Assembly: GCF_013201545.1 (NCBI RefSeq)
Contig: NZ_CP053746.1
Span: forward strand, 5,098,501 to 5,162,500
Direction: 5' to 3'
Length of the DNA: 64,000 bases
Origin: Pseudomonas graminis
GTDB taxonomy: Bacteria > Pseudomonadota > Gammaproteobacteria > Pseudomonadales > Pseudomonadaceae
The translations under genes were made by a program, and so were the position numbers. Numbering within the stretch: the stretch's first letter is position 1; every line of letters starts with the position of its first letter. Shown here one piece after another: positions 5,731 through 8,645 of this stretch. The notes under the pieces are model-generated. The model did not search any database. It was not told the origin of the DNA and saw only the letters and a list, made by a program, of their open reading frames with translations.

Positions 5731-6528
5731 ATGACACTCCATTCGCTCATTCACTCACTGGGCAGCGCACTGTGTATGGCGCTGTTGCTGTGCATGGGGA
5801 CAGGCGCGTCGGGAGCTGAATCGATTAACTCAGACGCGCTTCATGCCGAGATTCACGTAGTCACCGAAGAACTGCCGCCCTACAACATGACCCGCGACGG
5901 GGTGCTCACCGGTATGAGCACCGAGGTGGTTCAGGCGGTGTTGAAGGAGGTCAATGTGCAGGCCTCCATTCAGTCCATGCCCTGGGCACGGGCATATGAT
6001 CTGGCGCTGCACACGCCCAATGTGTTGATTTACTCCATCACCCGCACCGCCGAACGCGAGCATCTGTTCAAGTGGGTCGGCACCATCGCCGCGTCGCGCT
6101 GGTTTCTCTATTCGTCCGCCAGCCATCCCGTTACGTTGCTGAGCCTGGACGATGCCCGGGACTGGCAGACCGCGACGGTCAATGAAGATGTTGGCGAGCA
6201 GTACCTGATGGCGCGCGCGTTCGAGATCGGCCATCAGCTGCAATCGAGCAACCGCTACGAATTTAATTACCAGAAATTGCAGACCGGCCACGTCGACCTG
6301 TGGATTTCCGACGAGCTCAACGCTTACTACCTCGCCCGGCAAGTTGGTGATGACCCTGCCCGAACCCTGGTGCAATCCCTGCGCGTAAAAGAGCTGGAGG
6401 AAGCCGGCGGCTTCAACATGGCGTTAAGCACGGGAACGCCCGATGCCACGGTGCAGCTGTTTCAGAAAGCCCTGGAGACGATTCGCGCCAATGGCACCTA
6501 CGACGCCATCGCGCGCAAGTGGCAATGA
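5731..6528 (+). CDS. Periplasmic solute-binding protein, SBP_bac_3-like (first of pair)
   Basis: A 265-residue protein with a Sec signal (hydrophobic residues about 8-24, likely cleavage after GASGA) and a type II periplasmic-binding fold. The mature part opens with IHVVTEELPPYNM and contains MPWARAYDLA and a later LFKWVGTI, features of the extracellular family 3 amino-acid binding proteins. No permease or ATPase gene is near. Its stop overlaps the ATG of the downstream GGDEF gene, so it is probably co-translated with it. It resembles the third gene at 7905 (shared PWARAYD, NVLIY and LFKWVG). I infer a ligand-sensing rather than transport role; the ligand is unknown. Confidence 0.8.
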   Translation: MTLHSLIHSLGSALCMALLLCMGTGASGAESINSDALHAEIHVVTEELPPYNMTRDGVLTGMSTEVVQAVLKEVNVQASIQSMPWARAYDLALHTPNVLIYSITRTAEREHLFKWVGTIAASRWFLYSSASHPVTLLSLDDARDWQTATVNEDVGEQYLMARAFEIGHQLQSSNRYEFNYQKLQTGHVDLWISDELNAYYLARQVGDDPARTLVQSLRVKELEEAGGFNMALSTGTPDATVQLFQKALETIRANGTYDAIARKWQ

Positions 6529-7889
6529 GCATGCAGAGCGAAACGCCTTCCGGGCCGCCCGGCGACACCCGCCCGGGCCCTCGCAACGGGCAGCGCACCG
6601 GGTCGCTCGCGCGGCGTCTGGTGCTGGCGACGCTGGCGTTTTGCGTGCTATTCACTGTCGCGACGGTGCTGGTGCGTACCTGGTTCGCCTGGAACACCAA
6701 CCTGGCGAACATGAATGCCGAGCTGACTCTGATCGATCAGGTGTTTCAGGGCACGCTGTCCAAGGCCGTGTGGGAAATGGATGACCAGGCGCTGCAGACC
6801 CAGATCGACAGCGTCGCCACGGCGGCGCCGGTGGGTCGGGTACAGCTGAAGGTCCTGCGGCCCGGTCGCGCCCCTGAAATCCTCGAACGCCAGCACCCCG
6901 GCCACACCGGCTCGATTCGCGCCCCGGCGCTGTATCGGCAGCTGACCGTCGCGCCCTATCCCGGCGCCAGCGAAGTGGTGGGCGAGCTGACCATTGAAGG
7001 CGACGAGAGCCTGCTGTGGAGACGCCTGTGGAAAGAAGTCGCGATTATCATGCTCACTCAAATCATCCAATCGTTGGCGCTGGCCGGGGTGATCATGGGC
7101 ATGTTCAACCGCTCGGTGACCCTGCACGTGCGGCGCATTGCCCGGCACCTCGAGCACCTGACGCCGCTCAACCTCAAGACCCACCTGACCCTGGAACGGC
7201 GCGGCAAGGGAGGAGACGAACTTGACTTGCTGGAAGCGGGCGTCAATGACCTGCAGGACAAACTGGCTGCGCACCTGGAGCGTCAGGCACACGATGAAGT
7301 CGCCCTCGCCGCCAGCCGTGATCACCTCGCCGAACTGGTCGAGCAGCGCACTGCACAGCTCAAGGCCGCCAATACGCGACTTGAAGCCCTGACCCGCTTC
7401 GATCCCCTTACGGGGCTCGCCAACCGCCGCCATTTCGACGAGCTCAAGGAGCTGGAATTCAACCGCGCCTTGCGTCATCGCCAGCCGCTGTCGGTGCTGA
7501 TGTGCGACATCGATTTCTTCAAGCTCTACAACGACACCTACGGCCATGCCCGGGGCGATCAATGCCTGCGCGATGTGGCGCTGGCCATGAGCGCGCTGTT
7601 TTCGCGTTCCGGCGAACTGGTGGCGCGGCTCGGCGGCGAAGAGTTCGCCGTGCTGCTGCCGGGCCAGGATGAGCAACAGGCGCTGGCCTCGGCCGATCGC
7701 CTGCGCGGCCTGCTGGCCCGGCAACAACTGGTCCACAGCGCTTCACCGGTCTCGCCCTTCGTGACCTTGAGTATCGGCGTGGCCGAGCTCGACCCGGCGA
7801 ACATGGAGCACTTCGATCAACTGCTGCAGAGTGCCGACCGGGCACTGTACCGGGCGAAAAGCCAGGGCCGGGACCGCTGTGTGATCTGA
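6525..7889 (+). CDS. Membrane-bound diguanylate cyclase (GGDEF) between two binding proteins
   Basis: A protein of about 454 residues predicted to make cyclic di-GMP. Transmembrane helices lie at about residues 30-50 and 167-187, enclosing a periplasmic sensor region of about 115 residues. A HAMP-like linker, a short coiled coil (LAAHLERQAHDEV to AQLKAANTRLEAL) and a GGDEF domain with active-site GGEEF at 370-374 follow. FDPLTGLANRRHFDE opens the catalytic domain. The product-inhibition I-site is RSGE instead of RxxD. The start at 6525 gives an ATGA overlap with the upstream gene; GTG 6519 and ATG 6531 are alternatives. Flanking binding proteins suggest periplasmic control. Confidence 0.88.
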   Translation: MSMQSETPSGPPGDTRPGPRNGQRTGSLARRLVLATLAFCVLFTVATVLVRTWFAWNTNLANMNAELTLIDQVFQGTLSKAVWEMDDQALQTQIDSVATAAPVGRVQLKVLRPGRAPEILERQHPGHTGSIRAPALYRQLTVAPYPGASEVVGELTIEGDESLLWRRLWKEVAIIMLTQIIQSLALAGVIMGMFNRSVTLHVRRIARHLEHLTPLNLKTHLTLERRGKGGDELDLLEAGVNDLQDKLAAHLERQAHDEVALAASRDHLAELVEQRTAQLKAANTRLEALTRFDPLTGLANRRHFDELKELEFNRALRHRQPLSVLMCDIDFFKLYNDTYGHARGDQCLRDVALAMSALFSRSGELVARLGGEEFAVLLPGQDEQQALASADRLRGLLARQQLVHSASPVSPFVTLSIGVAELDPANMEHFDQLLQSADRALYRAKSQGRDRCVI

Positions 7890-7904
7890 ACCGAGAGGGA
7901 TGCC

Positions 7905-8645
7905 ATGGGAAAAATTCATTGTCAGCACAGTGTTCTGGCCACTTTCCTGATGCTGTTCGTGTGCCTGAACGCCGACGCCACGCCGCTGCAAGTGGTGACC
8001 GAGGACTCTTCCTACAGCGCGCTTGACGGCGACAAGGTGGTCGGGGTCGCCAGTGAAGTCGTCGAGATGACCCTCGCCCACGCCGGCATCACCGACTACC
8101 ACATGGCCCTCTACCCCTGGGCACGGGCCTACGACATCGCGCGCCTGGAAGCAAACGTGCTCATCTACCCGATGATTCGCAGCAGTGCGCGCGAAGGGCT
8201 GTTCAAGTGGGTCGGCGAGCTTGAACACGTCATGCCTTCGTTCTACAAACTCCGCAAGCGCCGCGATGTGCTGGTCACGGATTTGCAGGACGCCAGTCAC
8301 TACACCGTCGGCGTGGTGCGCGACGATTCGCGCCAGCAGTACCTGGAGGGCAAGGGTTTCAGCAGGATGGTGGTGTCGGCCAATAACCTCGACAACCTGC
8401 GCAAACTGATCAGCGGCCAGGTCGAGCTGATTCCCATGCCCGAACGCGAGGCGCGGGAACAATGCGCCGATCTGCACATCGATTTCGAGGACCTGGAAAG
8501 CGTCTTCACCCTCGACGAACTGTCCAAAGGTCTGTACGTCGCCCTCAGCGCCAGCACCCCGGATGAGACGGTGCAGCGGATCACCGCCGCGTTCGCCCGA
8601 CTCAAGCAGAACGGCACCGTGGACAGGGTCATCGCCGGGCAGTAA
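7905..8645 (+). CDS. Periplasmic solute-binding protein, SBP_bac_3-like (second of pair)
   Basis: A 246-residue secreted protein with a signal peptide ending near LNADA and a type II periplasmic-binding fold starting LQVVTEDSSYSA. It shares YPWARAYDIA, NVLIYPMIRS and LFKWVGEL with the protein at 5731, so the two probably arose by duplication. It starts 15 bases after the GGDEF gene on the same strand with GAGAGG upstream, consistent with one three-gene operon. No ABC permease is adjacent. It may present a different ligand, or a different ligand state, to the same cyclase. Confidence 0.8.
   Translation: MGKIHCQHSVLATFLMLFVCLNADATPLQVVTEDSSYSALDGDKVVGVASEVVEMTLAHAGITDYHMALYPWARAYDIARLEANVLIYPMIRSSAREGLFKWVGELEHVMPSFYKLRKRRDVLVTDLQDASHYTVGVVRDDSRQQYLEGKGFSRMVVSANNLDNLRKLISGQVELIPMPEREAREQCADLHIDFEDLESVFTLDELSKGLYVALSASTPDETVQRITAAFARLKQNGTVDRVIAGQ

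Follow-up and report, generated by a model that had tools for sequence, protein, structure and literature searches.

Periplasmic binding proteins that act on a membrane-bound cyclic di-GMP (c-di-GMP) enzyme or on a kinase are described in works cited in PMC11113362 and PMC9602780. In Vibrio cholerae, the periplasmic solute-binding protein (SBP) NspS sets the activity of the membrane c-di-GMP enzyme MbaA, the empty SBP having a low basal effect (PMC8967002), and a counterpart of this pair is described for Sinorhizobium meliloti (PMC9993111). In Salmonella, the response of the cyclase STM1987 to L-arginine needs a separate periplasmic binding protein, ArtI (review PMC8846402). CdgH of V. cholerae is a diguanylate cyclase which itself contains two flytraps for amino acids, each with a preference of its own (PMC5431781). 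The locus described here combines one cyclase gene with two SBP genes. It is located in a stretch of 64,000 nucleotides from Pseudomonas graminis (contig NZ_CP053746.1, positions 5,098,501 to 5,162,500), referred to as the window, and was first noted on inspection of the DNA letters (the original prediction). Its three genes, encoding SBP1, a membrane diguanylate cyclase, and SBP2, form a conserved cassette, in which two non-transport SBPs with amino-acid-like ligands probably, though this is said with some reserve, dock on one cyclase to set c-di-GMP. The features have the following positions in the window:

5731-6528, + strand: SBP1, 265 amino acids, periplasmic solute-binding protein of the SBP_bac_3 family, no transporter partner seen
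6525-7889, + strand: membrane diguanylate cyclase (GGDEF), 454 amino acids counted from the ATG at 6525; layout: transmembrane helix (TM) at about residues 32-50, periplasmic domain at about 52-170, TM at about 172-190, HAMP-like/coil segment, GGDEF domain
6678-7034, + strand: sensor domain of the cyclase on the periplasmic side (residues about 52-170), a diverged relative of CHASE5 on which the SBPs presumably dock
7905-8645, + strand: SBP2, 246 amino acids, second, divergent periplasmic binding protein

The coordinates bear out the co-directional, tightly packed SBP-membrane GGDEF-SBP arrangement of the original prediction. The ATG of the cyclase gene overlaps the stop codon of the SBP1 gene (ATGA), and the SBP2 gene starts 15 bases past the cyclase stop. 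SBP1 carries an N-terminal hydrophobic stretch, judged by eye to be a signal peptide, and matched Pfam SBP_bac_3 (PF00497) above the cut-off (expect value, E, 9.5e-15; 55 bits, cut-off 26.4). For SBP2, no match above cut-off, SBP_bac_3 included, was obtained in the Pfam scan. Its AlphaFold2 model is a flytrap with a predicted local distance difference test value (pLDDT) of 96.4, and the best PDB match of the model, among many flytraps, was 3h7m, a histidine kinase flytrap sensor (E 3.1e-14). SBP1 and SBP2 are homologous to each other (32% identity, E 7e-28). The cyclase matched Pfam GGDEF (E 1.1e-48), and hydropathy peaks at residues 32-50 and 172-190 enclose the periplasmic loop between two helices that had been predicted; it comprises about 120 residues by hydropathy instead of about 115.

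When 84,980 species genomes were scanned for the N-terminal region of the cyclase, 131 relatives were found in named genomes. The counts of loci given here rest on the best 80 of these, many of which are close kin, and carry no formal test against chance. The order SBP1-cyclase-SBP2 on one strand is present in 78 of the 80 loci, which lie on different contigs. A search of Pseudomonas for this order had been proposed along with the original prediction, and the loss of linkage in relatives that would have spoken against a functional unit was not observed. One gene was matched in two pieces in four of the 78 full loci (L069, L071, L072, and L113), and SBP2 adjoins the cyclase in 79 loci. The loci come from Pseudomonas, Stutzerimonas, and two gammaproteobacteria, and five of them from Rhizobacter, a betaproteobacterium. 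Intergenic gaps are tight, the medians being -10 bases for 73 loci and +17 bases for 68 loci, values which depend on the start codons picked by us. For conservation counts, five SBP1, three cyclase, and one SBP2 sequence of the 80 loci were dropped because they were absent, short or broken; including the window sequence, 76, 78, and 80 rows, respectively, were left, and all three proteins are represented in 73 rows (72 loci and the window).

Within the genus, the cyclase (at least 57% identity), SBP1 (E of at most 1e-40), and SBP2 (E of at most 1e-30) each occur in the identical ten of 99 genomes and in none of the others at these thresholds, those for the SBPs having been chosen after the cyclase search. 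Since the three genes are linked, these presence counts are not independent tests. The ten genomes also overlap in part with the named loci, some being the same strains (e.g. G080 and L113). Besides that of the window, ten further cyclase loci were detected in nine other genomes, nine of these loci with the full triad; the tenth, L045, is a second cyclase copy, accompanied by SBP2 and part of SBP1. At greater distance, 274 genomes of the class did not show the cassette: the sensor region gave an E of 7e-30 for the best match in a foreign genome versus 2e-151 for the own one. In genome G020, labeled as the same species, nothing matched the cassette, but the closest counterpart there of the downstream gene was only 45% identical, so no conclusion was drawn from this genome. 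A literature search of titles and the opening of abstracts, with subscription papers outside it, yielded no description of the triad, and the titles retrieved for CHASE5 looked unrelated. As far as this search goes, the conserved three-part arrangement is a new element composed of individual parts of known kinds.

The surroundings of the cassette are variable. The 447 flanking open reading frames (ORFs) of the 80 loci, picked mechanically with up to three a side, fell into 236 clusters, the largest of which is represented in 12 loci. An ATP-binding cassette (ABC) ATPase motif was found in the flanks of four loci by a motif scan, which is insensitive. No transporter family recurs in the flanks of the 80 loci, for which a profile scan for permeases was not made, and eight regions surrounding distant relatives were likewise free of a flagged ABC ATPase motif. 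The absence of a permease or ATPase beside the cassette, part of the original prediction, is in agreement with these data: none was seen adjoining and no recurrent one in the 80 flanks, the own genome not having been searched for permeases. Upstream of the cassette, on the opposite strand, are two genes which we take, by eye, to encode cytochrome bd-type oxidase subunits, and downstream there is presumably a phosphoethanolamine-transferase-like gene.

These results bear on an explanation in which both SBPs feed an ABC importer encoded elsewhere, the cyclase being co-expressed but untouched by them. Members of the SBP_bac_3 family usually serve importers, and SBP1 matched amino-acid importer SBPs in PDB. 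Adjacent pairs of SBP and receptor without interaction are also known (PMC11113362). However, no flanking family recurs, ABC ATPase motifs are restricted to those four flanks, none was flagged in the eight regions of distant relatives, one relative is fused to a histidine kinase, and the cyclase sits between both SBPs in 78 of the 80 loci. An importer function is regarded as quite improbable. Conserved linkage, joint presence in the ten genomes of the genus, and the lack of a recurrent adjoining transporter are all in favor of a dedicated three-gene unit, as had been proposed. The wider proposal of a ligand-gated c-di-GMP switch, in which the two SBPs would report on different ligands or compete for one sensor domain, is thereby supported in part.

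Comparison of the two SBPs with each other showed an average identity of 32% within loci (range 27.5-40.9%, 73 rows). The SBP tree comprised 51 rows, namely 17 of the 76 SBP1, 17 of the 80 SBP2, seven of 19 kinase-linked SBPs (see below), and 10 others. SBP1 together with its solo copies forms one clade (96/94), SBP2 a separate one (100/99), and the seven kinase-linked SBPs a third. Branches in this tree are long and the bootstrap is unsettled. The separate clades indicate that SBP1 and SBP2 did not arise by a recent duplication, but an old duplication within the operon would still fit, since holding the two together was not rejected by the approximately unbiased test (p-AU 0.32).

The original prediction had regarded the two SBPs as duplicates on the basis of shared motifs. 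The motifs are real and the proteins are homologous, but the separate clades lend no support to a recent duplication. Duplication as read from the motifs was not accepted as stated, because PWxR and FxWVG are largely family-wide, NVLIY being the exception. In 11 lone SBPs, three of them from a single array, W and R of PWxR are present in all, and so is F of FxWVG; W of the latter motif was found in ten, V and G in seven. As these residues are common in lone SBPs, they are to be seen largely as family marks. From NVLIY, V is not found in any of the 11 proteins and I in three, and this motif appears closer to a mark common to SBP1 and SBP2. The 11 kinase-linked SBPs compared all possess W and R of PWxR but lack FxWVG.

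Residues at the predicted ligand site are strongly conserved. The core of amino-acid flytraps is found in both proteins, Glu46/Glu33, Trp85/Trp72, and Arg109/Arg96 in SBP1/SBP2, and is invariant, the arginines being present in 76 of 76 and 80 of 80 rows. Thr106 is found in 73 of the 76 SBP1 sequences, and its counterpart in SBP2 is Thr/Ser93 in most rows. In SBP2, residues E33, W72, R74, R92, R96, and D141 are invariant in 80 of 80 rows. Flytraps classically bind the amino group of the ligand by an aspartate. At the equivalent position, as drawn by us from AncQR alignments, SBP1 has Asp in 20 and Asn in 51 of 76 rows, and SBP2 (position 179) has Asp in none of 80. Domain I of CdgH binds L-Arg via Glu56, Thr104, Arg109, and Glu122, and its second flytrap domain prefers Gln and His (PMC5431781). 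Because the core ligand residues are kept and, in a correspondence made by us, resemble the L-Arg binders of CdgH domain I, amino-acid-like ligands are likely for SBP1 and SBP2. The ligands of the two proteins are probably not the same. When the 274 class genomes were searched with the triad SBPs, the best match, the own genome aside, was located in a protein of about 1,200 residues (L181:4164-7769) with three SBP_bac_3 stretches, a histidine kinase, and receiver domains.

Exceptions to the linkage are few. At L095 (P. typographi) no SBP is located beside the cyclase, and L121 (P. quercus) contains only a tail of 41 residues of SBP1. The P. quercus genome harbors an SBP1-type solo gene elsewhere, and P. 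typographi a second locus (L197), where both SBPs flank a cyclase whose reading frame, in the deposited sequence, is broken in two. Where linkage breaks, the missing partner is still present in the genome, as judged from four genomes searched and with the frame breaks being possible sequencing errors. Strain KNUC1026, whose second cyclase-SBP2 copy has a partial SBP1, also contains a solo SBP1. In the genomes searched, every extra solo SBP belongs to the SBP1 type and no solo SBP2 was found. It may be added that in P. typographi the solo cyclase of the cassette family at L095 is intact while the cassette cyclase at L197 is split.

The bias for SBP1 among the solo genes raises the possibility that only SBP1 signals to the cyclase and that SBP2 has degenerated or is accessory (a buffer, chaperone or decoy), kept by its position in the operon. 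SBP2 is also more diverged (mean p-distance 0.480 versus 0.387 for SBP1), lacks the classical amino-group Asp in all 80 rows, and gave no Pfam match above cut-off. Yet SBP2 adjoins the cyclase in 79 of the 80 loci and has six residues invariant in all rows, SBP1 itself contains the amino-group Asp in just 20 of 76 rows, and in the P. quercus operon it is SBP1 that is gone and SBP2 that is kept. A role for SBP1 alone is considered unlikely, if somewhat less so than an importer function.

Some lone SBP genes were encountered in other settings. A solo SBP1 relative (L162:4915-6006 in G023) is located near transposase-like and beta-lactamase-like ORFs, named by eye. P. taeanensis contains three lone SBP genes in a row (L199:3813-6301) adjoining a gene that, by eye, is histidine-biosynthesis-like, and the genome of the window a single lone SBP (L164:4938-5744) in a setting like that of P. 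taeanensis, its neighbors being named in the same way. An SBP-GGDEF pair of the own genome (L200) was left uncounted, since its SBP is about 1.6 kb from the GGDEF gene.

Five hybrid histidine kinases from other Pseudomonas could be aligned with the region of the cyclase from the TM to the coil (22-26% identity). One of these kinases was scanned and matched Pfam CHASE5 above cut-off (E 1.5e-15). The window cyclase itself remained below the cut-off for CHASE5 (PF17149; 14 bits versus 27) and also for HAMP. In sequence set A2, CHASE5 matches with an E of at most 0.1 were obtained for eight of 11 members, the best being 0.0012. The genus set contained 21 weaker sensor matches, and all 19 with loci have a kinase motif and a cassette-family SBP directly upstream. 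In this genus, the sensor type is thus tied to SBPs with two different outputs. The 19 kinase loci (L026-L044) possibly represent an uncharacterised SBP-kinase system; the five of them that were read by eye have a response-regulator-like gene ahead of the SBP gene. The best fold match for the periplasmic domain of the cyclase, the LapD-type periplasmic domain 4u64 (E 0.013, template modeling score 0.51), was too weak to be used.

On the output side, the cyclase is predicted to be active, its catalytic motif being intact: GGEEF, in accordance with GG[DE]EF, is present in 78 of 78 sequences. The inhibitory I-site reads RxxE in 77 of these and RxxD in one (7605-7616 of the window, residues 361-364). 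An RxxD inhibitory site is common in active diguanylate cyclases, but not required. The constant RxxE suggests weaker product inhibition, and from this step it would follow that output is controlled by the sensor.

In the proposed mechanism, SBP1 and SBP2 would be exported to the periplasm as non-transport flytraps, the three genes making up a self-contained signaling cassette. Each SBP would close on its own small amino-acid-like ligand, and the ligand-dependent conformation would dock on the CHASE5-like periplasmic domain of the cyclase dimer. Docking would set GGDEF activity by displacing TM2 together with the HAMP-like segment and the coil. As both SBPs are kept, the cyclase would integrate two inputs, either from different ligands or from one SBP that activates and another that restrains. 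We infer docking of the SBPs, their ligand class, the integration of two inputs, and the direction of the effect on output. Two SBPs could serve one receptor by different ligands, by opposition or in a mixed complex, and the data do not choose among these.

Several points weigh against this mechanism. The solo SBP1 gene of P. quercus is one gene away from what we take, by eye, to be an ABC transporter of the metal type that comes with a separate SBP, and an importer for SBP1 and SBP2 could be encoded elsewhere in the own genome, given the extent of the search mentioned above. In the wider class, a cassette-type SBP was found in none of 18 loci with a related sensor (1.5 kb searched on each side), showing that the sensor type does not need such an SBP. 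The model of the periplasmic domain is poor (pLDDT 62.5), and the 51 weaker of the 131 cyclase relatives are outside the analysis. Co-divergence with SBP1 was higher for the cytoplasmic control segment (HAMP/coil) than for the periplasmic domain (r 0.897 versus 0.841), and remained so with the GGDEF signal removed (r 0.510 versus 0.266). Since the control segment correlates as high or higher, co-divergence shows joint inheritance only, and contact between SBP and cyclase was no longer deduced from it. Finally, for AgtS and AruS and their neighboring SBPs, which belong to another SBP family, no interaction is reported to have been found, although the same source also counts in favor, the genes being neighbors in 10 of 11 characterised SBP-kinase couples (PMC11113362). 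It is mainly this published negative for neighboring SBP and kinase genes that keeps our confidence in the mechanism limited.

A special form of the mechanism is a heteromeric sensor, in which SBP1 and SBP2 bind one per protomer or both together and the output reads the ligand ratio or needs both. Such a sensor would be consistent with the retention and joint presence of two different SBPs and with the best class-genome match, in which three SBP_bac_3 stretches are fused to a kinase; CdgH and BvgS have two flytraps per chain in cis (PMC5431781). On the other hand, SBP1 and SBP2 might not be active simultaneously, and a heteromeric sensor is proposed only tentatively. With similar caution, the cassette might be viewed as a two-input periplasmic comparator, in which two diverged flytraps with their own ligands act on one dimeric cyclase, possibly in a mixed complex, so that c-di-GMP reports the ratio or coincidence of two external compounds. 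The cassette would then correspond to a tandem-flytrap receptor in split form, with the flytraps acting in trans.

The signals of many c-di-GMP enzymes are unknown, and the cassette offers a direct handle, with ligands on soluble proteins and c-di-GMP as readout. Action of both SBPs on one sensor domain would make it a natural two-input receptor. In some Pseudomonas and related bacteria, the cassette may let two outside chemicals jointly set c-di-GMP. The mechanism, if true, would further point to a function for those lone SBPs of gammaproteobacteria that lack a linked transporter.

Among known systems of this kind, ScrB-ScrC of Vibrio parahaemolyticus and TorT-TorS of Escherichia coli reportedly employ single binding proteins of other families, unlike the cassette. 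The Pseudomonas SBP-hybrid kinase pairs described above are related to it in the membrane-sensor-HAMP region and likewise have, upstream, an SBP belonging to this broad family, but differ by their kinase output, their one SBP, and the separate clade of their SBPs (seven in the tree). ArtI-STM1987 is different from the cassette in its dCACHE sensor and single binding protein, and ArtI has a role in transport. The cassette may work like NspS-MbaA, by analogy: as expected of SBP-controlled c-di-GMP enzymes of this type, its SBP genes are linked to a membrane GGDEF gene across genomes, in 78 of the best 80 of 131 relatives. NspS-MbaA, however, consists of one SBP with polyamine ligands and a GGDEF-EAL enzyme, whereas the cassette contains two SBP_bac_3-related SBPs, a GGDEF-only enzyme, and a CHASE5-like sensor. 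A profile of the triad SBPs reached PDB 5gzs, a GGDEF family protein (E 2.2e-4), which we take to be CdgH. In CdgH, both flytraps are inside the receptor chain, whereas in the cassette they are encoded by separate genes and the cyclase, as receptor, carries a sensor domain itself. The cassette resembles a split CdgH but, its flytraps being separate genes, is not a CdgH-type receptor; the proposed mechanism, if true, would show how flytrap sensing shifts between separate and fused forms.

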